From a virus, in IMG/VR virus record IMGVR_UViG_3300042887_002054, positions 1-60,171 of that record: a stretch of DNA of 60,171 bases. One strand, 5' to 3'. Numbering within the stretch: the stretch's first letter is position 1; each line of letters starts with the position of its first letter. This document shows positions 4,896-53,646 of this stretch, piece by piece. The position numbers and the translations under genes are program-made. Under the pieces are notes generated by a model, which did not search any database, was not told the DNA's origin, and saw only the letters and a program-made list of their open reading frames with translations.

Positions 4896-5504
4896 CTAAC
4901 AAAGAGGACAAGCTCCTGTTGTAGTGCAGATGATTTCTGTAATTAAGCTATTAACTTTACTATAATCTGCGTTAAGTTGTGTTTGTTTACCTTCAGCCAA
5001 TGTCATATATGCATTAGGTGTAGATGGTACTGATACCAAATCCCAACATAATAATTCAAAATCGTCTTGTACTTCAACTGTTTCACCAATTTGTTTAACA
5101 GAACCCATACCACGAGATGATATACCTAATGGAATGCCTGCTAAAATAATTTCTTGAGCAATTTTACCTGATGGTGTATTCAATAATGTTAACATACCCA
5201 TTACATCATTACCTTCCCACCAAACCTTATTAATAACGTGTGATACGTTATTTAAGTTAACAATTGTAGATTCAGGATGATCTAATTCACCCATTGCTGT
5301 ATTTGATTTTACAGGACCATTTGCATAAATTTCTACTTGTTTTTTTAAAACTTCTGGTGGGTAAACACGGCCATTACCGTTTTTTACTCCTGATTCTTGC
5401 AATTTACCTGTAATACGCATTCTACCATCACCTGTGCTTTTAGCTTCAGATAATGTCATTTTAGCAATGTGGAACGGTGTATGATCTATTAATAATTGTT
5501 TCAT
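4896..5504 (-). CDS. 21: Prohead core protease, gp21-like
   Basis: This 202-residue serine protease resembles T4 gp21, which trims scaffold, capsid and internal proteins after (L/I)-x-E. The catalytic His is in GELDHP (H76) and the Ser in GISSRG (S129/S130). The N-terminus carries its own candidate self-cleavage site, LSE (18-20) followed by Ala. Length and position fit the family. The C-terminus ends in a Cys-containing tail, CTTTGACPLC. In this phage it is the presumed processing enzyme for the many leader-bearing proteins encoded at 5.5-29.7 kb and 51.8-52.1 kb. Confidence 0.92.
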   Translation of the reverse strand: MKQLLIDHTPFHIAKMTLSEAKSTGDGRMRITGKLQESGVKNGNGRVYPPEVLKKQVEIYANGPVKSNTAMGELDHPESTIVNLNNVSHVINKVWWEGNDVMGMLTLLNTPSGKIAQEIILAGIPLGISSRGMGSVKQIGETVEVQDDFELLCWDLVSVPSTPNAYMTLAEGKQTQLNADYSKVNSLITEIICTTTGACPLC

Positions 5505-23500: not shown

Positions 23501-23535
23501 ACTACGTGTAATATAAATTTATCTATTGGTCTCAT
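20527..23535 (-). CDS. Giant multidomain leader-bearing protein (1002 aa)
   Basis: The start MRPIDKFILHVVHNLFPLNE ends in LNE (18-20). Residues 119-170 contain 'CIKYGAGEKWCITRG' and 'PVFYLAKNNSLSDDNKLSFVAIQV', a Cys/Trp pattern that recurs in large phage proteins of unknown role. Residues about 680-710 form a Pro/Ala linker with an AT-hook-like GRRGRPAG, followed by an Arg-rich domain. Near the C-terminus LDE precedes a Lys-containing hydrophobic segment (about 869-892) that ends SLAQAQ, a typical signal-peptidase-like sequence. The last 100 residues resemble small periplasmic LPP20-type domains ('ARTQALLKAKADLMQKMG'). It may be a capsid-internal protein with a periplasm-directed C-terminus; function not known. 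Confidence 0.7.
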   Translation of the reverse strand: MRPIDKFILHVVHNLFPLNEYSEGEINKLMTQFREEANDLGIEITDEQLKAYIIRFDALKNSPKVTDKDLRKYTLSKLIKLVTSSAGAEAPPDKEDDTPDVVYHEEPYIIWNGSKEGNCIKYGAGEKWCITRGSFSNYRYSSGRGYPVFYLAKNNSLSDDNKLSFVAIQVRDVERESERYVYTNRKNSPYESNPMSWEQLNSEIPWLRNIPNVKNIMKYIPISSQEKLTQKYAYDAIGIREWLNFPFETKKQYLVVRGSRGQFFSDISNSVFVEKYLPKYPQIANFIAVTPGLVDSKELLKNLDKFSNQDRRSITANLRDKINLKDLQTDIFPWDVKKLITSLNKWDITPDDRIYVTKDGSAIVKLKLGDNIGVSVYTEEDDYPNVKLNKRTSKFLLDYPELDKIPFKNLMKLVVDDVIDKNVVTKLLDDAKTNPNSAIIVKQIEDGEIILDSNSFASYKIDKDGGILPVPFDNEEVQAAFDDAKNNEGLQQNALALIRYGDRIPKNIDRNSFISVLRAIPLDKRIVEWRGNPAVVITTENNKILVMSTNRGIASLQQTAVFGDNSDWVVPSNGGYSADPEVYRAYYAYLTTQNKRFNDNELINAVRSAGQSYSNARVTNAIIEANPPMVEGNLMKPVMYQGTGYIVNTQNPRESFGVSGASGKLVKANISPAQAAAMLGLPAPAATAATTGRRGRPAGQPNTPRPAAAPAAPGDINVREVMSDTGLETAFLRLPRSVIRRLNVTDARRVEPNGDRGVARRNNLLGTRGRVGRTIAIGNSKIYFISLPGARIVASINVQPGNSNYLLVGNEGGNVAMSLNSPSDLVQALTQRGLAEARRYIVQDYLYNNPEHLDEVKTMLTKQLDEISAKKAIATGALALGLMGTPSLAQAQNTFKDKVKAGITAVQNKFKPQQKVDTIKIQKDAPLELAKFKDFKGAGYGFAASPNQSTARTQALLKAKADLMQKMGVQRITAGFEEKDTKMYQLPDGTYQCEAVVVIGNM

Positions 23536-23957
23536 TATTTATTAAACTTTACTTTTGCTTTATCTGTATTAGGTACAAATTGTTTACCTTTTTTAGATCC
23601 AGCTACTTTTTTACGAGATGTAGCAGCGCGTTCAGCTTTAGTTAAACTATTTGCTTTAGCGCGAGGCAAACAACGAGTTGTTGCTTTACCTTTTTTCATT
23701 GTACCACAAGGACCAGTTATATTACCTGCTGTATCAATACGAACCCAATCTTCTTTTTTAAACCAATCACGAAGTGATTCGTGTAAATCTAAATCGTCTT
23801 CTTCCATTAATCCTTTACACACTTTAACAGCACGACCAGAAAGATAAGCTGATGGTTTTTCACCAGCAGCTCTACGACGATTGTAATAAGCTTTGCCTTT
23901 TTTACAAAGTTTCTTTTCAGTTATTACATCTTGTAATATTTCAGTTAATTTTATCAT
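23535..23957 (-). CDS. Leader plus basic Cys-containing domain (140 aa)
   Basis: I chose the ATG at 23957, just after the upstream stop, giving MIKLTEILQDVITE (ITE at 12-14); an earlier ATG at 24014 would overlap the neighbour by 56 bases. Then follows 'KLCKKGKAYYNRRRAAGEKPSAYLSGRAVKVCKG', a domain found widely in phage proteins and, I believe, catalogued as a domain of unknown function (DUF5872-like). The rest is a second basic Cys-containing segment (GPCGTMKKGKATTRCLPRAKANS). The strong positive charge suggests nucleic-acid contact. It fits a packaged, leader-cleaved protein. Confidence 0.7.
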   Translation of the reverse strand: MIKLTEILQDVITEKKLCKKGKAYYNRRRAAGEKPSAYLSGRAVKVCKGLMEEDDLDLHESLRDWFKKEDWVRIDTAGNITGPCGTMKKGKATTRCLPRAKANSLTKAERAATSRKKVAGSKKGKQFVPNTDKAKVKFNK

Positions 23958-23958
23958 A

Positions 23959-24336
23959 TTACCATTTTCTACAAGACCAGTATCTAGCTTTAGTACGTGG
24001 TCCTGGGTTAGCACAATTATGTCTTGCTCTAAAAGCTCTACGTCTTACAGGATTATTTTTCTTAATATTCATCCCTTTAGCACCAAAGTTAACTTTTACA
24101 ACTTTACCTGTTTTAGGATTTTTAACATATACCTTAAATTTCTTACTATCGCCACGCATTGGTTTACCTAATGGTACAGTACGACCTTGATATTCCGCTT
24201 CAAGTAAACATGGACAATCAGCTTCGTTAAGCTCTTGTTGATATGATTCCATAAACTCGACAAATTCTCTTATGTCTTGTTCATTTTCTACATCATATTC
24301 TTCTATTTCTTCTAGAATTTCTAATAATTTAATCAT
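23959..24336 (-). CDS. Leader plus basic Cys/Trp-ended domain (125 aa)
   Basis: The leader MIKLLEILEE (LEE 8-10) is followed by an acidic helix and then a basic domain (about 52-125) with 'KPMRGDSKKFKVYVKNPKTGKVVKVNFGAKGM' and a C-terminal 'FRARHNC' plus 'KARYWSCRKW'. This C-terminal domain is familiar from proteins near the capsid genes of T4-like phages, including cyanophages, but without a known role. Spaced Cys and His residues may bind metal. It is one of five consecutive leader proteins. Confidence 0.72.
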   Translation of the reverse strand: MIKLLEILEEIEEYDVENEQDIREFVEFMESYQQELNEADCPCLLEAEYQGRTVPLGKPMRGDSKKFKVYVKNPKTGKVVKVNFGAKGMNIKKNNPVRRRAFRARHNCANPGPRTKARYWSCRKW

Positions 24337-24342
24337 AATTTA

Positions 24343-24573
24343 TTATTTTGGAAGCCACCAATTACAACAGTATTCATCAGCAGGGTAAGGTATTTCAGCT
24401 TTACCATCATGCCAAGTCAACCAATATTTACTATTACATTTATTACCTTCAGCAACCCAGAATTTACAGTTAGCACACATTGAACCACCTTTAGTTACAC
24501 GCATTCCTGGTTGGTGATCTGCTGGGTATTCAGCTGGTCCTTCATTTAGTATTAATTCTGATAGTTTAATCAT
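24343..24573 (-). CDS. Leader plus small Cys-rich domain (76 aa)
   Basis: The leader MIKLSELILNE (LNE 9-11) is followed by a compact domain with 'GSMCANCKFWVAEGNKC', 'KYWLTW' and 'IPYPADEYCCNWWLP'. The Cys-x-x-Cys and later Cys pairs suggest a metal or iron-sulfur site, resembling small high-potential-iron-sulfur-like phage proteins. Cleavage would release a roughly 65-residue Cys-rich protein. It overlaps the upstream gene by one base. Confidence 0.7.
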   Translation of the reverse strand: MIKLSELILNEGPAEYPADHQPGMRVTKGGSMCANCKFWVAEGNKCNSKYWLTWHDGKAEIPYPADEYCCNWWLPK

Positions 24574-24845
24574 TACATATTATTTTTTAAATCAGATCCA
24601 TTAGCTGACATTATTGGACTATCTTCACCGCCAAACACACCTGGTGTGTGGTGATCAAATTGATTTTTATCATTTGCAAAAGTAGTGTGTTTCATTATTT
24701 CACCTATACTATCACTAATATCTTTACGGTCATTAGACTTTAAAGCAAAGGTAGCATGTTTAATAATCAATTTTAAATGATCATTAAGATGCATATCAAC
24801 ATCTGTTATTTCACCTTCATTAAGTATATCTAACAATTTTATCAT
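24573..24845 (-). CDS. Leader-bearing small protein (90 aa)
   Basis: The leader MIKLLDILNE (LNE 8-10) is nearly identical to those of the ART-like and kinase proteins. The mature part, about 80 residues, has 'HLNDHLKLIIKHATFALKSNDRKDISDSIGEIMKHTTF', an internal duplication of an 'IKHATFA/MKHTTFA' helix. Function unknown. It starts with ATGA overlap. Confidence 0.65.
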   Translation of the reverse strand: MIKLLDILNEGEITDVDMHLNDHLKLIIKHATFALKSNDRKDISDSIGEIMKHTTFANDKNQFDHHTPGVFGGEDSPIMSANGSDLKNNM

Positions 24846-25157: not shown

Positions 25158-25747
25158 TAGTAGCCTACTATATCTTTTAGACTTTGTATGTATTCTTGTA
25201 GATCTTCGATCATTTGTGTAGTATCTATATTTCCACCACGCCATTCTTCAATATCACCCGCTTCAGTAACAAATGATTCTTTACTTGCGCCTAATGATAA
25301 TTCTAACAATAGATCTTCCATCTCTTTAATATGAGTTTTAATACCAGAATGAACCATGTTACGTTGGTATTCTTCAAATTTACCTATACGCTTTAATTCA
25401 GATTCCATATTAATAACACAATCAAAACATTTACCATGTAATGGCCACATCTTTTTATTTAATAGGTTATTAGCCATTGCCTTACTACAATTAGGACAAA
25501 TAATAGGTAATAATAATGATTTTTTAATACTGTCTAAACGTGTGATTGTTTGTTTAAGGCCATTTTTAATAGTCCAATTTTTACCATTTTCTTCCCAAAC
25601 ATCACCTTCTTTATGTTCAATATGTTGTTTAGTATAACCAGTTTGTGTTGAGGTCTTATCACCATAGTTTTTAGTAATAAGATTACGCATGCGTTGTACA
25701 TCGCGTTGTTTAAAATCTTTTTGTAACCTTGATTCTTTTTCTTCCAT
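25157..25747 (-). CDS. Zinc-ribbon phage protein (196 aa)
   Basis: The 196-residue protein has a helical N-terminus and 'GDVWEENGKNWTIKNGLKQ'. A zinc-binding pair CPNCSKAM and HGKCFDC lies at about 89-114, and the C-terminal part is helical and acidic. Proteins with this 'WEENGKNWTIKNG' plus zinc-ribbon order are, as far as I recall, frequent in uncultured myoviruses and unnamed. It overlaps the HAD phosphatase gene by one base and may work with it. Confidence 0.7.
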   Translation of the reverse strand: MEEKESRLQKDFKQRDVQRMRNLITKNYGDKTSTQTGYTKQHIEHKEGDVWEENGKNWTIKNGLKQTITRLDSIKKSLLLPIICPNCSKAMANNLLNKKMWPLHGKCFDCVINMESELKRIGKFEEYQRNMVHSGIKTHIKEMEDLLLELSLGASKESFVTEAGDIEEWRGGNIDTTQMIEDLQEYIQSLKDIVGY

Positions 25748-26214
25748 TATAACCCTAATTTTTTAAGTTCTTTTATTGTATTAGCCGCTGATGTATGTAA
25801 TATTCCTATACCACCTGCGTTATTCCATTCTTTAATAGTTTGTTCCATATCATCAATTAGTATTTTACCTTCAGCAGCAAATAACATTTTTTGTGCTCTT
25901 GGATATAATAATAATTTTCTATATTCACCCGGTATATGCATTTTAACCCAATCGTCTTTACCTACTCGAGATGAAGGATCCATAGAAGGAGCTGATAAAA
26001 GATATGGTTTATATTTTTTAATATAATTCCACAATGTTTGTCCATCAGACATCCAATCTAAATTAGCCCAAAACGATGCACCAGCATCCGATATTGGTTT
26101 CCAAAACTCTTTTTTGCCATTAAATGATTTAGATGGTTTTGTGTTTGTTAAATCAGCATAACCTTTTTCAAAATCGGCAAGGACTCCGTCCATGTCGCAG
26201 TAAATTGTGTACAT
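25747..26214 (-). CDS. HAD-family 5'-nucleotidase-like phosphatase
   Basis: The 155-residue protein carries the HAD nucleophile motif DMDGVLADF (7-15) and a late acidic pair ILIDDMEQTI. An aromatic, Trp-rich cap region lies between (FWKPISDAGASFWANLDWM). This is the layout of 5'(3')-deoxyribonucleotidases and related phage phosphatases, which dephosphorylate nucleotides. Substrate not certain. It is translationally linked to neighbours on both sides and lacks the leader. Confidence 0.8.
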   Translation of the reverse strand: MYTIYCDMDGVLADFEKGYADLTNTKPSKSFNGKKEFWKPISDAGASFWANLDWMSDGQTLWNYIKKYKPYLLSAPSMDPSSRVGKDDWVKMHIPGEYRKLLLYPRAQKMLFAAEGKILIDDMEQTIKEWNNAGGIGILHTSAANTIKELKKLGL

Positions 26215-26216
26215 AA

Positions 26217-28238
26217 CTATTTTTTATTTTTAAGCATTGCTTTAATTAAGTCAATATGTCCTTCTCCTGCAGTAGCTATTACTTTGTAACCTCTACTTTC
26301 ATATTTCTTTAGTTTTGATAATAAGTTTTCATCTCTAGCTTCGTTAAAAGCATCAGCTACCTTAGCTACTTTTGTATACTTGTCTCCATAATCTGCTGGA
26401 AAAGAAAGTCTATATAAGGTATCGTAGTCTTTAGCTGTTGGTTCGGATAAATTATCTGAAAGTGGTAATTCGGCTTCTTGTGCTGCTGCTTTCAAAAACT
26501 TAATACCTTCTGTACTTAAGTAATCTTCTGGAGCGAAATCTGCTACTGATTGGCCTTGTAAAATATTTTGTCCAACCATACTAGCCCAATTAGCTGCTAA
26601 TATTTTACTACGAGAAAGACCTGTTTTTTCTTTTTGAATTTTGTACAAAAGGGATTGGTCATTCATTACATTTAAATCAGAACCATCCCATGAATCATTA
26701 ACTAGGTTTTTAAAGTAAGAACTTAATTCATCATAAATCATTTCTTGCTCACTACCTGCTACATACTTGTCATTATCATCCCCACCTTCTCCCATAAATG
26801 CTACCTTATCGTCAGGTGAAAAATTTTTCTTAACATAATCTACAACTTGTTTTGCATCTGACTCACTGTAATGCTCAACTCCAAAAATAATAGAATTACC
26901 AATAGGAAGTTGTTGAACTTCCTTTAAAATATTTTTTTTTGTAGCTGTTAGCTTTACCATTTTTTTATGTTCGTAAATACTATTATTTATCTTTCCAAAG
27001 TTTCTTAATAATACACCAGCCATTGCATTTGCTTCATCTTCAATAGGTGAACCAGTTTTACCGCTATTAATATCAAGACGACCATCTTCTTCTTGTTTAC
27101 GATGAATCAGTTCATGTGCCAATGTTCTCAATATGTCAGCCATGTTTCTATTCTTAACATAAACCCAAATCTTATTACTACTTGGATCAAAATAACCAAA
27201 ACTACGTTTTTCTTTTGCTTTGTCGTTATCGTAAGATAAAGTTAAGTTACTTGGAAGATTTTGCAACCCCAAGTTTTTAACTGAATATTTAATAAATTCA
27301 CCAATAGTCGCTGTTTGACTTTCGTTTAATCTACCTTCAGTTAAGTAAAATGCTTTTTCATTAGGCATATCAATTGTAGCCAATAATACTTTAGGTTCTT
27401 GACCTGCTTGTTTATATTTTCTTAATGTATCATTACCTGAAGCTAAGTAATAATTATCTTTATCATAATTCAATACTAATGCAGGATCTGTTGGTAATTC
27501 ACCACTATATTTACCTTTAATATTATATGAATCACTATTTTCTAATTTAGACCAAATATCATCTGATAAAAGGACCATACCACCAGCTGTAAAAGCATAT
27601 TTTAAATCTTCAAGAGGAATATTAAATTTTTCTGCTGTACGTTCAATATTACTTGCTTCTTTAGCTACATAAGCTGTGAAAGTATCATCTGTAGTTTGGT
27701 GATTAATTTCTATTAATGGCTTTTCAAGTACACCTAAAAAATCTTGCACATTAATACCTGTAGGGATAAATTTTTCAACTTCAGTTGGGTTTTTACCTAC
27801 TAATGCTGTTCTTAAACCAGTAGCGTTTACGCCTTCTCCTGCTATACCTGCATCAAATACTTTTACATTAGGAAATTGCAATGCACTTTTAAAACGATCT
27901 ACTTCACCTTTACCTGCAGCTAAAATAAAATTAGTATCAGGATTATCTTTAACAACGTTATAAACTTCTCTAATAGGACTTTCTTCAGTTAATTTTACTT
28001 CAACAGAACCATTCATTATTGTTTTATATAAATTCCATACAGCAACACTTTCATCAGCGTCAACACCATCACGAGTTTTAGGTGATACTAATATCACTAC
28101 TTGGTCTGCTTTATTTAGTAATTGTTGGACTACTTCAAAGTGACCTTTGTGTGGTGGTTTAAATGCACCTGGAAACAAAGCAATTGTTTGTTTGTCTGTT
28201 TCTAATAATACTTCTGCTATATATTGTCCTAAATTCAT
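26217..28238 (-). CDS. Leader + nucleotidyltransferase + HExxH peptidase polyprotein
   Basis: The 673-residue protein starts MNLGQYIAEVLLE. I chose the ATG at 28238 because it forms TAATG with the preceding stop; an ATG 12 nt earlier is possible. Domain 1 (about 18-165) is a cytidylyltransferase-fold nucleotidyltransferase with FPGAFKPPHKGHF (HKGH 30-33). Domain 2 (about 305-425) has LAHELIHRKQ, a zinc metallopeptidase motif (HELIH 375-379), with E-D-E-A-N-A downstream as a possible third ligand. Domain 3 (about 440-673) is unidentified. Leader-like segments lie at both domain borders: YLTEGRLNES (298-307) and MVKLTATKKNILKE (427-440). This suggests that the prohead protease cuts it into separate enzymes. 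Confidence 0.75.
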   Translation of the reverse strand: MNLGQYIAEVLLETDKQTIALFPGAFKPPHKGHFEVVQQLLNKADQVVILVSPKTRDGVDADESVAVWNLYKTIMNGSVEVKLTEESPIREVYNVVKDNPDTNFILAAGKGEVDRFKSALQFPNVKVFDAGIAGEGVNATGLRTALVGKNPTEVEKFIPTGINVQDFLGVLEKPLIEINHQTTDDTFTAYVAKEASNIERTAEKFNIPLEDLKYAFTAGGMVLLSDDIWSKLENSDSYNIKGKYSGELPTDPALVLNYDKDNYYLASGNDTLRKYKQAGQEPKVLLATIDMPNEKAFYLTEGRLNESQTATIGEFIKYSVKNLGLQNLPSNLTLSYDNDKAKEKRSFGYFDPSSNKIWVYVKNRNMADILRTLAHELIHRKQEEDGRLDINSGKTGSPIEDEANAMAGVLLRNFGKINNSIYEHKKMVKLTATKKNILKEVQQLPIGNSIIFGVEHYSESDAKQVVDYVKKNFSPDDKVAFMGEGGDDNDKYVAGSEQEMIYDELSSYFKNLVNDSWDGSDLNVMNDQSLLYKIQKEKTGLSRSKILAANWASMVGQNILQGQSVADFAPEDYLSTEGIKFLKAAAQEAELPLSDNLSEPTAKDYDTLYRLSFPADYGDKYTKVAKVADAFNEARDENLLSKLKKYESRGYKVIATAGEGHIDLIKAMLKNKK

Positions 28239-28909
28239 TATTTCATCCATTTTTTATCTGTGGTGAATTGAAAATTTTTATCTATATTTTCGTCTGTAGG
28301 TTGATAATATTGTTTATCTCCTGCTTTAATTAATTTATATTCTCCTAATTCTTTTTTCAAATAATCAAATAATTCTTGATCATTATTAAAAGTAATTTTT
28401 TGATCTGTTTGAGCTTTACCTCTAATAACAGGATATAATGCCGGTACTTTTTTCCACTGCATTATTTTTCTAAAAGATTGGATCGCGTCTGGATTTAGTA
28501 TATTTAATTCAGATCCACTAATAAGAGCATCTGTACCTTCTTGTCTAAGTTTATCAAATGCTTCTTTACCAATATTATGTAAATCAGATTTATTTATAAC
28601 TTTAGCGTTAGATTTTAATCTCATTTCATACATAAATCCTTCTTTAGCATATTCACTATAAAAGCCTGTATAATTCATGGGACAAAAAGAATCTCTACAT
28701 TCTTTATCTTTACCAAAGTAAATACCAATACCACTTTGAGATCCAGTATTACCTTCACCAGCTGCTTTAGCAGACATAAATTCTTTACCCTTATTTTGCC
28801 TAAATAAAGGATCTAAATCACCTTGATCAATATCAGCAGTTGAACCATGATACCAAATACCACCAACATCTCCATCAATTTCTTTTAATATGTCTAGTAA
28901 TTTAATCAC
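28238..28909 (-). CDS. Leader-bearing ADP-ribosyltransferase-like protein
   Basis: The gene starts with GTG overlapping the previous stop (GTGA). The leader MIKLLDILKE (LKE 8-10) precedes a domain with WYHGSTADI (H21), GIYFGKD (Y64), a series of beta strands ('FMYEMRLKSNAKVINKSDL') and 'ALISGSELNIL' (E134). The H-Y-E order and the strand pattern fit the ADP-ribosyltransferase fold. T4 packages the ART Alt in its head and injects it to modify host RNA polymerase, so this could be a functional counterpart. The domain call rests on motif reading alone, with moderate certainty; sequence similarity to Alt itself was not seen. Confidence 0.6.
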   Translation of the reverse strand: MIKLLDILKEIDGDVGGIWYHGSTADIDQGDLDPLFRQNKGKEFMSAKAAGEGNTGSQSGIGIYFGKDKECRDSFCPMNYTGFYSEYAKEGFMYEMRLKSNAKVINKSDLHNIGKEAFDKLRQEGTDALISGSELNILNPDAIQSFRKIMQWKKVPALYPVIRGKAQTDQKITFNNDQELFDYLKKELGEYKLIKAGDKQYYQPTDENIDKNFQFTTDKKWMK

Positions 28910-29661
28910 TTAAGAAAGCTATTAATTTTAGATTTAGCATCGTCCATAGATGTAAATTCTGGTGTTGATCGTACTAGTTGTTCTATATTAGCATTTAAGT
29001 CTGCTATTTCTTTATCGCGTTTAGCTTTCTCGTCTGGTGTATAAATCTTACCACTACCCTTAACTGTTTTAAAGAATCTTTCTCTAGCAACAGCAGGATC
29101 ATATTCTAATTTACCATTTGGATCATTGTTAATTAAAACAAATTTATCACCAAATGCTTGTTTGTAATTATCTATATTACCATTTACACCAGCCCATGTT
29201 TTAACAACAATAGAAGGTGCTAATGCACGATCACGATTAGCATTGCGCTCTAATGATGTATAAGGTGAAACCCAAATCATGACCATCATTGTATCGTATC
29301 CTAATTCTTCTAATTCTGCTTTTTTCTTTAATAATGGTTTACTAGCAGCACCAGTACCATCTATGATAATATCTTTTTTAGCTCCCGATAATTCCGCGTA
29401 TTTTTCTTTAGTTGCTTTTTGAGCTTGACCCATTAATTTGGCTGCTTGAGACAATTGATCTTGGTTGAAATCTGCGATTTTCATGCCTAAACCTGCTGCT
29501 TTTAACAGTTCCTCATAGGTGTCATCGACATTAATTACAGTCAAATTTTTCGGTATTAACTGCGCAGATACAAACGTTTTACCAGAACCAGCAGGGCCTG
29601 CCATGAATATAGCTTTAGGTTTGCCTTGTGCTTCTTTTAGTAAATCTAGTAACTTAATCAT
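28906..29661 (-). CDS. Leader-bearing zeta-toxin-like P-loop kinase
   Basis: I chose the ATG at 29661, giving MIKLLDLLKE (LKE 8-10), over one at 29700 that lies inside a hairpin. The 251-residue protein has Walker A AGPAGSGKT (21-29), 'VINVDD' (a substrate aspartate region), 'KKDIIIDGTGA' and 'RNANRDRAL', the arrangement of zeta-toxin/PezT and related small-molecule kinases. Zeta toxins phosphorylate UDP-N-acetylglucosamine; whether this one does is unknown. Packaging with the DNA is inferred from the leader and neighbours. Confidence 0.75.
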   Translation of the reverse strand: MIKLLDLLKEAQGKPKAIFMAGPAGSGKTFVSAQLIPKNLTVINVDDTYEELLKAAGLGMKIADFNQDQLSQAAKLMGQAQKATKEKYAELSGAKKDIIIDGTGAASKPLLKKKAELEELGYDTMMVMIWVSPYTSLERNANRDRALAPSIVVKTWAGVNGNIDNYKQAFGDKFVLINNDPNGKLEYDPAVARERFFKTVKGSGKIYTPDEKAKRDKEIADLNANIEQLVRSTPEFTSMDDAKSKINSFLK

Positions 29662-29668
29662 ACGTGAA

Positions 29669-29721
29669 TATAAATAGGTGACCTGGACAAGCCAAGCCAC
29701 CTATAAATATTGTTATTTATA
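29669..29721 (-). promoter_or_regulatory. Control region with boxes and a hairpin before the kinase gene
   Basis: An 11-bp stem (29676-29686 with 29692-29702, two G-U wobbles on the minus strand, 5-nt loop) is flanked by TATTTATA (29669-29676) and ATATTTATA (29702-29710). Minus-strand TATAAATA, identical to the T4 late-promoter octamer, lies at 29714-29721. No T run follows the hairpin, so it may be a leader structure rather than a terminator. Confidence 0.5.
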
Positions 29722-32265: not shown

Positions 32266-33072
32266 TTATCGTTGGTTACCTATATAAGTATCTATAACGT
32301 AAGTGTTTCCAAAAGATCCTGATGGATATCCACTACCTCCATATAAAGGAACATTAATAAGTTGAAGTGCTGTACCCAAACCATTTAGAATGTAAGGACT
32401 ACCTGCATCTGGAGTACCATTTACTCTATAGATAATTTCTGATACTTGGTAATCAAAAACTCTTGTTTGTTGAGTAACTGCTACATAGAAGAAGTTTCCT
32501 GTTGGAATAGTAAAGGTTGTTGTACCAGTTGTGAACAATGTTTGTCTTAATCCCAAGGCACCACCATTAGTTAATGGATAGTAAATTTGAGTATATCCTG
32601 AATTACCAGAATCTACAGTTAAGTTAACAGTAACTGTTACGTTAGGTCTAGCAGATATAGTAGGTGTTAAAGTAGGTGTTGCCGTTAATGTAGGAGTAGG
32701 TGTTGATGTTGGTGTTTGTGTACTTGTTAAAGTAGGAGTAGGTGTTGTTGTTAACCCTGGAGTTACAGTTGGTGATGCTGTTAATGTTGGTGTTAAGAAT
32801 GGAGTTAACGTTGCTGTTGGAGTAACTGTTGAAGTTGGAGTTGGTGAAGGAGAAATTGGTAAAAACTCAACATAATTGTTATTACAAGCAGGATTTGAGT
32901 TTACTACTATAATTTTTGTTGGTGTTGGGTCTGGGAGTATATAAGTAATGCCTGTTCTTAAAGCAGCCGCAGGTATATTTTGCTCAATAGGAGGTGTACT
33001 TAAGCTATTAGCATAAATAGTATAAGGTCCTGGTGCGGTACCGCTAGTTAATTGTACAGATATTGTTGCCAT
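32266..33072 (-). CDS. Adhesin-like protein with (Thr-x)n linker (268 aa)
   Basis: Residues about 1-70 form a beta-rich domain. Residues about 72-138 alternate Thr or Ser with Pro, Leu, Ala or Val almost without break. The C-terminal domain (about 140-268) is beta-rich with aromatic residues. This is the layout of a phage surface fibre or decoration protein with a mucin-like stalk. It resembles the larger protein at 38397-40187, with glycosyltransferase genes between them. A late-type box lies 24 nt upstream. Confidence 0.7.
   Translation of the reverse strand: MATISVQLTSGTAPGPYTIYANSLSTPPIEQNIPAAALRTGITYILPDPTPTKIIVVNSNPACNNNYVEFLPISPSPTPTSTVTPTATLTPFLTPTLTASPTVTPGLTTTPTPTLTSTQTPTSTPTPTLTATPTLTPTISARPNVTVTVNLTVDSGNSGYTQIYYPLTNGGALGLRQTLFTTGTTTFTIPTGNFFYVAVTQQTRVFDYQVSEIIYRVNGTPDAGSPYILNGLGTALQLINVPLYGGSGYPSGSFGNTYVIDTYIGNQR
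32657..32855 (-). repeat. Degenerate 6-bp-period repeat encoding (Thr-x)n
   Basis: About 200 bp of short degenerate units (plus strand GTTGGTGTAG-like) encoding alternating Thr. A related longer tract is at 38819-39201. Such tracts can vary in length by slippage or recombination. Confidence 0.75.
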
Positions 33073-38396: not shown

Positions 38397-40187
38397 CTAA
38401 TGTGTTAAACCACAGTTAACTGTGTAAGATGTATTAGGAGATACTGTAAATTCATAGGAAGCTACTACGTTATTTCCTTGAGAATAAGCAACAGTTGCTA
38501 CTCTACTACCATTAAAATTAACATAAGCATATGTTGTTGTACAAGGAGGATAATCATGTGTATACGCAATACTTCTTATATAAACTACTGAATTACCACG
38601 AACATTTGATTGAGAATATCCTCCAAATGTTTGGAAAGTACCTGTACCACCGGTTCCAGTAAAGCTATTATAAACATAGTTTCCTGAAGAACCCCACGGA
38701 CCTATATAGTTTCCATCTGGGTCAGTTGCTTCAAAGAAACATCCATGATCGACTGAGAAAGAACAGCCATCATATAATTGACCATTATCTTCATACATGA
38801 TGACATTAGCTGGTAATTGTGTAGGAGTAGGAGTAGGTGTTGGTGTAGCTGTAAGTGTTCTTGTTGCTGTTTGAGTAGGGGTGTTTGTTGGGGTTGGTGT
38901 ATTTGTTGATGTTGAAGTATTTGTTGGTGTAGGTGTTGGCGTTAATGTTCTTGTTGCAGTCAACGTTTGAGTAGCAGTTGGAGTAACTGTTCTTGTTGCA
39001 GTCAACGTTTGAGTAGCAGTAGCAGTAACTGTTCTTGTTGCAGTTAATGTTGGAGTTTGTGTAGAAGTTTGAGTTGGAGTATTAGTTGGTGTCGGTGTAT
39101 TTGTTGCAGTTAATGTTTGAGTTGCAGTTGGAGTAACTGTTCTTGTTGCTGTTAATGTTGGAGTACGTGTTGGTGTTGGTGTTGGTGTAGGAGTAGGAGC
39201 AAAGAAAGTAACGTTAATTCCAAATTCACAATCTGGTTCAATAACATTAAATCTTACTAGTGCTTTATTACTAGTTAAAACTGTTCCACAAGTATCATTT
39301 AATAAAGCATCTACAGTATAATAAGCATCATAAGTTCCTGGAGTAAAAAACTTCCAGTTACTAGATGTTATAGGTTGATATGTTACTGGACTGCCTCCAG
39401 GAATAATAACATCAGCATACATTACTACTGATTCACTAAAACTACCTGTTAATTTGATAATATCTAGTTGATCAATACTTCCGGATAACACTACAGAACC
39501 TGTAAGTATTGTTCCTGATCTAGCGATGTCATTAGTTAAAATTACACTTCCTGATTTAGTTAAATCACTTGATCTAACTGTTATAATATTTGCAACTGCT
39601 AAAGGAGGAAGAGGGAACATATTTTGATAATCCTGATTAGTAATTACTGCTAGTCCTTGAGGATAAAATATATTACCAACATGATTACTTCCGGTGTCAA
39701 ATAAATTTCCATTACCATCATCTGTTATATAATAAGCAGAAGATGATAGTTTAAAATTATATGGTAATACTTTTTCACCATATACATCTTGATTAATAGC
39801 TAATACACGAATACCTGCATTAGTACCTGTAGGAAAATTCTTAATTAAATTAGGATTTTCATCATAAATAAAATATGATGAAGTAGCGTATTGTTGAGAG
39901 GCTGATTCATATAAGAATGAATTAGCTAAAGAAGAGGTATCTAAAAAAGAACCACTAAATGAGTGGTAGAATAAATGATTAATTTGATCATAAACTAAAC
40001 GTTCATACTGCCCTTCAGTTACAGGGTCCATGGTAGTGTCAAAGCTACCAGACATGTTAGTACCTTTATAAATCGTTATATGTTCAGAAGAAGTAGGGTA
40101 TGAACAGTAGGATAAATCCCATTGTTTATTTGCTGCATAAGCAACATTCGTAACGTCTGACTTGTTTAGTTGTTTGAATGATGACAT
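38397..40187 (-). CDS. Large adhesin with (Thr-x)n stalk (596 aa)
   Basis: The N-terminal 325 residues are beta-rich and contain Gly/Ser strands such as '[17 protein letters not shown]', probably the virion attachment part. Residues about 329-456 have Thr at almost every second position, with Pro, Ala, Leu, Val, Arg, Gln or Asn between. Longer units such as [14 protein letters not shown] recur. The C-terminal 140 residues have six or more Cys and many Gly/Tyr, a likely receptor-binding tip. Layout is that of a tail or head adhesin with a rigid glycosylatable stalk. Confidence 0.75.
38819..39201 (-). repeat. Tandem repeat tract encoding the (Thr-x)n stalk
   Basis: About 380 bp of near-regular 6-bp units, within which a 42-bp block containing GTTCTTGTTGCAGTCAACG is repeated with small changes at least twice in tandem and again further on. 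Recent duplication is likely, since the copies are almost identical at the DNA level. Confidence 0.8.
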
Positions 40188-51773: not shown

Positions 51774-52139
51774 TTATCCTAAATTTCTTAATCCTGATCT
51801 ATCTTGAGCGGTCATATTGTTAGCGGCATCATTAATAAAAGCTAAATAAGGATTAACAGGTTCACCTGTAACCTCATCAACGGCATTAATTACTTCTAAT
51901 TTAGGCGCAGATGGTTGGAAACCAAATGCTTCACCCATTTGTGCAGCTAGTTGACTACGTACACCCCCAGGCAATGGATTAGTTGGTACATTAGCACTAG
52001 TAAAACTCATTGTTTTACCTTCACGTAATGCTTTTTTTTCTTGTTTAGCCATATGCTCTTCAAGAATATATGGTAATTCTTCATGAATAGCATCAATTAC
52101 TGCTTCCTTAATTAATTTTTTAAATGCTTTAATGTTCAT
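51774..52139 (-). CDS. Leader-like small protein in the baseplate cluster (121 aa)
   Basis: I chose the ATG at 52139, which yields MNIKAFKKLIKEAVIDAIHE (IHE 18-20), a basic amphipathic leader like those of the internal-protein family. An earlier ATG at 52178 would overlap the neighbour. The remaining residues are Ala/Gly/Pro-rich with 'PLPGGVRSQLAAQMGEAFGF', and a C-terminal helix. It is the only such leader among the baseplate genes. It may be packaged, or the resemblance may be accidental. Confidence 0.6.
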   Translation of the reverse strand: MNIKAFKKLIKEAVIDAIHEELPYILEEHMAKQEKKALREGKTMSFTSANVPTNPLPGGVRSQLAAQMGEAFGFQPSAPKLEVINAVDEVTGEPVNPYLAFINDAANNMTAQDRSGLRNLG

Positions 52140-52142
52140 AAT

Positions 52143-52151
52143 TATAAATAT
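52143..52151 (-). promoter_or_regulatory. Late-type box close to the 121-aa gene start
   Basis: Minus-strand ATATTTATA, 3 nt before the ATG at 52139; short-distance class. Confidence 0.3.
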
Positions 52152-52152
52152 T

Positions 52153-53646
52153 TTATCCTTGTAAATTTTGATTATCAATTTGTAATTTTAATTGACTTAT
52201 CAGTTGTTGTGGGTCTAATGTAAATGAATAATCACTTTTTAATTGTTCTACGCCTTTAGTATTAACTGCTACAGCATAATGGCGTTTATTTCCTTTAACT
52301 ACAAATCTAGGATCATCTTCTTTTTTAAGAACAAATGTAAATCCTTTATAATTTCCAATTATACTATTATTATTACTAGGAACAACTCTATTAACAAGAC
52401 CATTTAATGTTGATAAAGAGGAATTATTAAGAGTATCTTGTAACGAAGTTGTGCTTACTTCTGGATTTTGTTTTGCTAATAGGTTTAATAATGTTGTGGA
52501 ATTACGTAATCTATCAGCATATTCACTATCAGATTCATCTGATCTACGATTAATATCAGATATTGGATTTTCACTGGATGATGTAATTTGTGATATGTAA
52601 TCAAATAATTCATTATCATTTAATAAATCTAATGTTTTATCTTCAATTTTTTGATTAATTTCACGTAATTGTCTTTTTAAATCTTCTAATATAGCAATAG
52701 CAGATGTTAGCATTGGTATTAATATAGAAACTGTTATACCTATACCGTCACGAATTTCTTTAGCATTAGACCATTTAATAGTTGCTGGTTTAGCAAGAAT
52801 ACCTAATGGGGATGGTACGGGAATTATATTTAAAATAGCAGTTAATATTCCAAATATTGTTAATATAACGTTTAATGTTTGTAATACTTTTAATATAGCT
52901 CTTATTCTATTTTCTTGTCTATTTATAGTACTAATAGCTCCATTTCTAGCTATTCTAGCTTGGTTTAATTGAGGTAATGTTACTGCGTTATCAATAATTT
53001 CATTTGTTTTATCTACTAATTCTTGAAGTTCAGCACTATTGGCTATAACTTTAATTAATTCTCCTGTTAATAAAGATGCTGTTATTTGTACTAAACCCTT
53101 AAATACATTTTTTAATAACTGTTGGACTTTTTCAGATTTATATAACTTATATAAAGTTTCTCTATTTAATTTTTTTCCAGCAACTTTTCCTTTAAATTGA
53201 ACATAGTCTGTTTTTATTTTTATAAAAGGATCTAGTAAAATTTTTTGTAATCTATCTTGTAATCCTTTTAAATTTTTATCAATTTTTGCTTTTTCTTTTA
53301 AATAATTTTCATTTTCAAAAGCAACAGCAGCTTGATATTCTTCATCTGATAAAGTAGGTGGATTTTCAATTACTCTTCCAAATTCATATGTTGTTGTACC
53401 TATATTTTGTTTTGATAGTTCAAGTAATTTTTTAATATGATTTTTTTCAAATTCAATTTTTCTTAAAATTGTTTTTTGAATTTCATCTTTTAATTTTTGA
53501 ACAATACCTAATGCAGCATTTATAACCTGTTTTTTAGCATTATCAATTAACTGTTGTCCAAAAGATTGTGGATTTTGGATTATTGATAGCGTGTTTGTTA
53601 CACTACTAGGAACTAAAGATGATATGTTGGATTGTAAATCAGCCAT
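52153..53646 (-). CDS. Hydrophobic tail/baseplate protein (497 aa)
   Basis: The 497-residue protein has long charged helices (about 30-160), then two strongly hydrophobic stretches (about 255-285, 'LNVILTIFGILTAILNIIPVPSPLGIL', and about 300-322, 'IGITVSILIPMLTSAIAIL'), then a soluble C-terminal domain. Coupled by one base to the gp5-like gene. The layout resembles small tape-measure or baseplate-hub proteins that may enter the host membrane on infection, comparable in position to T4 gp29/gp48. Assignment is by context only. Confidence 0.65.
   Translation of the reverse strand: MADLQSNISSLVPSSVTNTLSIIQNPQSFGQQLIDNAKKQVINAALGIVQKLKDEIQKTILRKIEFEKNHIKKLLELSKQNIGTTTYEFGRVIENPPTLSDEEYQAAVAFENENYLKEKAKIDKNLKGLQDRLQKILLDPFIKIKTDYVQFKGKVAGKKLNRETLYKLYKSEKVQQLLKNVFKGLVQITASLLTGELIKVIANSAELQELVDKTNEIIDNAVTLPQLNQARIARNGAISTINRQENRIRAILKVLQTLNVILTIFGILTAILNIIPVPSPLGILAKPATIKWSNAKEIRDGIGITVSILIPMLTSAIAILEDLKRQLREINQKIEDKTLDLLNDNELFDYISQITSSSENPISDINRRSDESDSEYADRLRNSTTLLNLLAKQNPEVSTTSLQDTLNNSSLSTLNGLVNRVVPSNNNSIIGNYKGFTFVLKKEDDPRFVVKGNKRHYAVAVNTKGVEQLKSDYSFTLDPQQLISQLKLQIDNQNLQG

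Follow-up and report, generated by a model that had tools for sequence, protein, structure and literature searches.

Why would a single viral protein that joins several unlike enzymes carry, at the borders of its domains, short segments resembling N-terminal leaders? The protein is encoded in a T4-like viral fragment of 60 kb (60,171 nt, hereafter the window) by a gene located at positions 26217–28250 on the minus strand (677 aa). A sequence-only reading of this locus had seen a nucleotidyltransferase, an HExxH metallopeptidase and a C-terminal domain joined together, and had proposed a past fusion of three leader genes as well as cutting of the product into separate proteins by the prohead protease. 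In phage T4, gp21 cuts after L/I-x-E (PMC9026906), and, as in gp21 substrates with a capsid-targeting sequence (CTS) of the T4 type, the short N-terminal leader of the 677-aa protein ends in L/I-x-E.

The ORF starts four codons upstream of M5 (28238), which the sequence-only reading had taken as the start; its residue numbers are therefore four too low, while the segments that it described are real. All three of its domains are present, and there is also a fourth, middle domain (about residues 190–298) with a border of its own at residue 181. The cytidylyltransferase/NMNAT-like domain (27708–28199, aa 18–181; this and all other parts of the gene are on the minus strand) contains HKGH at aa 34–37 and has a match above the cut-off to Pfam PF01467 (cytidylyltransferase-like; E-value, 8e-5), as well as Foldseek hits to NMNAT/NadM and PPAT structures (E-value, 3e-5). 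The middle domain (27336–27707, aa 182–305), which was aligned in 13 relatives, has no Pfam or PHROG match, and its assignment as ParB-like was dropped after hhalign gave a probability of 0.1 against a ParB_N group from the same phages. The zincin-type metallopeptidase domain (26970–27320, aa 311–427, ending in IYE) carries HELIH at aa 379–383 (27102–27116) and is recognised weakly (Pfam DUF6782, below the cut-off; PHROG metallo-protease, E-value, 6e-4).

The C-terminal alpha/beta domain (26220–26918, aa 445–677), to which the sequence-only reading had given no identity, matches no Pfam family. No sequence match was found in the PDB, and no relative among 84,980 species genomes or phage GenBank records. 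AlphaFold modelled this domain alone with a pLDDT of 81.8 and a pTM of 0.74. Fold comparison of the model gave no secure hit: 8b6h_DQ was found (Z, 10.2; rmsd, 5.0 over 167), and the best Foldseek hits were MINPP1 (E-value, 3e-3) and an uncharacterised Edafosvirus protein (E-value, 2e-5; TM, 0.59). A relationship to Tiki, ChaN or erythromycin esterases was considered, but the likeness in fold is weak: EreC was found at a Z of 5.9, with many other rows at similar Z. NMNAT-like, middle, metallopeptidase and C-terminal domains, which differ biochemically, thus stand on one phage chain, as is characteristic of polyvalent proteins. The closest full-length homologue (locus L018, 3693–5720; fetched loci are given by L numbers) has the same architecture (675 aa, 81% identical).

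The leader MNLGQYIAE/VLLE/ (28200–28238, aa 5–17; slashes mark predicted cuts) includes two [LI]xE sites (E13 and E17). It is also found in L018, L022, L104 and L106, and in L102 and L110 directly before the middle domain. The presence of leader-like segments at domain borders was confirmed in the ORF and in its relatives. At border 1, YLTE/GRLNE/S (27318–27347, aa 302–311; predicted cuts after E305 and E310), the likeness to a leader is confined to its cutting half (YLTE, RLNE), the targeting half MIKL being absent. Border 2 is an embedded leader, MVKLTATKKNILKE (26919–26960, aa 431–444; predicted cut after E444), which is complete and, as the sequence-only reading had noticed, includes a Met start. 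Its equivalents are IIKLKNILKE/AQQL in L018, where the leader is complete except that the start Met has become Ile, and EKIKLRESLYE/VQQL in L002. The third border, PLIE/INHQ (27690–27719; predicted cut after E181), had been overlooked; in L018 it reads PSLQE/MNHQ across an indel, L-x-E alone being retained. Together with the middle domain, this border predicts four products, which makes four more likely than three.

In the AlphaFold model of the whole protein (pLDDT, 83.3; pTM, 0.38), pLDDT falls below 50 at residues 178–187, 297–302, 428–446, 524–531 and 675–677; at border 1 it is below 50 at 297–302 and about 65 up to residue 310. Burial of the border segments would have spoken against the sequence-only reading, and the values below 50 at or next to each of the three borders suggest that these are probably exposed, although low pLDDT is also typical of ordinary linkers. 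In total, [LI]xE occurs 11 times in the 677 residues. The motif is short and is also present within predicted folded parts (E89, E95, E318 and E603), so that some of the sites may stay uncut.

Relatives in which the domains are separate leader genes, sought as a check of the proposed origin, were found for the C-terminal domain, the metallopeptidase, the middle domain plus metallopeptidase, and the transferase. A gene of its own encodes the C-terminal domain in L009 (MIKLSDILKEIALRE/INQLLIGNS; 91% identical to aa 431–673) and L015 (MIKLIDILKEIALRE/VQQLPIGNS; 88% identical to aa 431–673), with the complete leaders MIKLSDILKE and MIKLIDILKE, respectively, and in L159 (MIKLIDILLE/IKK; 46% identical). 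In a different clade, L002 and L010 encode the transferase separately (199 aa, with the leader MIDAKKIGQRIAEAIANE), and in the L002 group the metallopeptidase and C-terminal domain are fused via the EKIKLRESLYE/VQQL segment, with SLYE/V kept. Stand-alone metallopeptidases with leaders are encoded by Synechococcus phage B23 (MNYKQFLRE/S) and L142 (MKKFREYLKE/QE), and a gene of L109 that starts with the middle domain, followed by the metallopeptidase, has a leader-like N-terminus (...LQLAE/TT). A counter-example is provided by S-SRM01, whose stand-alone metallopeptidase has no L/I-x-E leader. An apparent parallel case (L117, L114 and L122; MSIKLGLLKEE) was left out, as the starts lie near contig ends. 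Past fusion of leader genes is strongly supported and close to shown.

As to the C-terminal ends of stand-alone metallopeptidases, those of L139, L140, L147, L166, L167 and L169 (136–140 aa) have a leader-like tail, ESESLKLGNILKE/IKRK, for which a decayed fusion and a C-terminal signal are suggested as alternatives. Many others (L115, L123, L126, L164, L170 and L173) terminate exactly at I-F-E, which may correspond to a cut point in fused copies (IYE427 in the window).

The fused relatives differ from one another by whole units, and domains come and go between sites. In L106, the metallopeptidase follows the transferase and the middle domain is missing; L110, L102 and L035 have no transferase, and their leader adjoins the middle domain; in L022, L029 and L103, different domains follow the metallopeptidase. 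In L034 and L032, a polymerase-beta-type NTase is placed in front, and the internal segment TNLGRYLASLILE corresponds to the start of stand-alone genes, MNLGQYIANTLLE. The same metallopeptidase is found in very long proteins of 1467–1974 aa (L165 2958–8882, the largest at 1974 aa; L113 2823–8123; L181 573–5438; L145 986–5389; L135 2332–6783), in most of which [LI]xE precedes it. The gene next to that of the 677-aa protein (25747–26214) encodes a leaderless 5'(3')-deoxyribonucleotidase; this enzyme is separate and has an MIKL leader in L180, and is fused behind the metallopeptidase in L029, L076 and L159.

The window encodes a gp23-like capsid protein (PF07068; E-value, 1e-77) and a prohead core serine protease (S77, gp21-like; 4896–5504, minus strand; PF03420; E-value, 7e-31), which shares 51% identity with the protease of Flavobacterium phage immuto and is the proposed cutter. 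Many genes of the virus start with M-I-K-L-x-D-I-L-x-E. The window and the fetched loci together have 2041 distinct ORFs, of which 230 carry a strict N-terminal leader. Ten residues is the commonest leader length among them: in 8.2% of these ORFs the Glu of an [LI]xE is residue 10, versus a background of 1.07% in residues 60–200. The complete leader motif is rare inside proteins (13 internal matches in 2313 ORFs, several of them being over-extended starts). An [LI]xE lies within the first 26 residues of 20 of the window's 25 head/cargo genes and of two of its 24 tail-block genes (Fisher p = 4e-7), the two groups having been set by hand from gene order and annotation.

Among the neighbours, a single-domain gene (28238–28909, minus strand) has the leader (V/M)IKLLDILKE/IDG and no Pfam or PHROG match; based on YHGST... 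and GIYFG, it may resemble an ADP-ribosyltransferase. The following gene, for a zeta-toxin/AAA-like kinase (28906–29700, minus strand; PF06414; E-value, 1e-9), has its leader, MIKLLDLLKE/AQG, at an internal Met, so that the start in the ORF list is probably 13 codons too early. Four small genes with MIKL-type leaders (23535–24014, 23959–24336, 24343–24573 and 24573–24845, minus strand) occupy 23535–24845. A leader-like start, MNIKAFKKLIKEAVIDAI, is also seen in gene 51774–52178, inside the tail block. Low-complexity Thr/Pro repeats (TPTPTPT) characterise the products of 32266–33072 and 38397–40187, which are probable tail or fibre proteins.

The 37 residues before the metallopeptidase contain [LI]xE in 31 of 36 non-redundant fused relatives, whereas random windows of the same proteins gave 11.4 ± 2.7 (maximum of 21 in 2000 trials); occurrences are 3.9 times the background. 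Near-variants reached 0.97 ([VF]xE), 0.56 ([AST]xE), 0.73 ([LI]xD), 0.71 ([LI]xQ), 1.07 ([KR]xE) and 0.83 ([LI]E) times the background, and [LI]xxE (1.96), Ex[LI] (1.66) and [LI]xK (1.50) were mildly raised. Junctions of other domain families were defined by a stand-alone leader gene matching the inside of a longer protein. [LI]xE was present at 59 of 81 such non-redundant junctions (3.97-fold) and at 32 of 165 control junctions, where the stand-alone gene has no leader (1.57-fold), related sequences being counted separately and not as independent events, and some junctions in this count belonging to small zinc-ribbon-like proteins instead of enzymes. This stricter count with its no-leader control replaced a first one, in which a tail-protein junction family was noise. 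At domain borders, the protease consensus thus exceeds the background, as in a polyprotein.

The motif ends exactly at the mapped Glu in 21 of 79 junctions. Clear pairs of stand-alone leader and internal junction are MYKLVDILNE/AKQVGTLYHFTS of L124 and GNLLKE/AKQIGTLYHFTS of L130 (89%), MIKLVDILKE/IGEGTKTYSW of L008 and GNVLKE/IGEGTKTYSW of L153 (75%), and MIKLLDILKE/AEEQQYKIYCDMDG of L180 and IFEKLTE/GEEKQYKIYCDMD of L076. Upstream of it, P7 is hydrophobic in 26% of junctions versus 95% of leaders, and P8 is Lys in 19% versus 74%. With L-x-E kept while P7 and P8 decay, the targeting half of the leader is mostly lost and the cutting half stays, as expected if a single N-terminal leader targets the chain and every border is still cut. 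This pattern fits the T4 CTS, the first 10 residues of IPIII, in which residues 4 and 7 serve targeting and residues 8 and 10 processing (PMC9026906).

We consider it likely that the gene encodes a capsid-cargo polyprotein, formed from joined leader genes, packed in the prohead and cut by the gp21-like protease into separate proteins. Genes that each had a short N-terminal prohead-packing leader would have become joined in frame, and the one leader now heading the fused chain would direct all of it to the core of the prohead. Within the head, cleavage by the gp21-like protease would follow the Glu of L/I-x-E, at the leader and at every border (E181, E305/E310, E444 and perhaps E427). Four folded proteins would be freed, namely the NMNAT-like transferase, the middle domain, the metallopeptidase and the alpha/beta domain, and these may be ejected together with the DNA. 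Motif specificity argues well for predicted cutting of the borders by the prohead protease; for delivery into the host with the DNA, it is the leader that is suggestive. Virion proteomics of immuto, of this virus or of its relatives was looked for, and none was found in the literature covered by the search.

It is unlikely that the chain stays whole, with remnants of leaders acting only as the linkers of an ordinary multidomain protein. The fusion in the window and in L018 looks recent enough for mere inheritance of the leader sequence, which could persist unused; however, L/I-x-E is retained where other leader residues have decayed (the L002 group, border 3 and most older junctions), and the enrichment is specific to [LI]xE.

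Besides the uncut chain, the principal rival is processing by the embedded metallopeptidase instead of the prohead protease, to which we assign a low probability. Embedded zincin peptidases have been proposed to free the domains of multidomain, polyvalent proteins (Iyer et al. 2017, PMC5512222), and both this protein and many of its relatives contain an HExxH domain. However, the borders carry the known consensus of gp21, the same motif as in the leaders of genes without a metallopeptidase; stand-alone metallopeptidases bear these leaders themselves; and motif junctions are found in fused proteins outside metallopeptidase-profile matches (LAE/AQQQYK in L042 7255–8490 and LNE/AQQQYK in L040 12639–13970).

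A gene within the gene, with the leader of border 2 as the real N-terminus of a second product, is very improbable: the window does have an ATG and a complete leader at 26960, but translation from this position was rejected since relatives do not conserve the start codon (L018 has ATA and L002 has AAA at this site), and borders without Met would be left unexplained. Chance occurrence in Leu-, Glu- and Lys-rich linkers is hardly credible either, because, common as three-residue motifs are (11 in this protein), at the metallopeptidase border most near-variants of like composition show no enrichment, and control junctions fall well below leader-gene junctions.

The proposed capsid-cargo polyprotein combines traits of several known systems. 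Polyvalent proteins likewise have many enzyme domains per chain, are thought to be delivered with DNA, commonly include a zincin metallopeptidase and were likened to viral polyproteins by their authors (PMC5512222). Release by the embedded peptidase was proposed for them, whereas the signal borne by the borders here belongs to a different enzyme, the capsid-maturation protease, and, unlike in polyvalent proteins, the parts occur elsewhere as single leader genes. T4 IPI–III and Alt, which are processed by gp21, share the ten-residue N-terminal leader ending in L/I-x-E, and the window has an S77 protease as well; the T4 internal proteins have one leader per product, whereas here several folded enzymes, whose release is predicted, stand on one chain (PMC9026906). 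The same source describes N-terminal propeptides, with C-terminal processing too for Alt and gp21, and not multi-enzyme release from one chain. Several prohead-protease cuts in one chain, as proposed here, are known for T4 gp22 and gp67 and for SPN3US propeptides (PMC9026906, PMC10052503). A cultured relative, Flavobacterium phage vB_FspM_immuto_3-5A, encodes a 907-aa fusion (immuto_182, QQO92100.1) in which a polymerase-beta-type NTase and an NMNAT-like domain are joined to a related metallopeptidase and a second segment with HExxH. Its candidate cut sites include LAE/ALDDG at 286 and RLPE/GAEQ at 565. It is annotated as nicotinamide mononucleotide adenylyltransferase only, and differs from the protein of the window in being 26% identical and without a similar C-terminal domain.

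For this group of T4-like viruses as a whole, it seems fairly probable that capsid-targeted chains, up to about 2000 aa long in relatives, are cut by the capsid-maturation protease into a number of folded enzymes serving as injected cargo, and that their domains are swapped as units bounded by L/I-x-E. If so, tailed phages, like many eukaryotic RNA viruses, would be able to deliver several enzymes made as one precursor, which the capsid-maturation protease cuts, and the capsid-targeting leader would be a portable part. This would offer a concrete alternative to the proposal of self-cutting polyvalent proteins, and the cultured Flavobacterium phage immuto makes the polyprotein reading testable. 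L/I-x-E beside predicted disorder would then be a simple rule by which cargo proteins could be recognised, and their true ends placed, in many unannotated phage genes.
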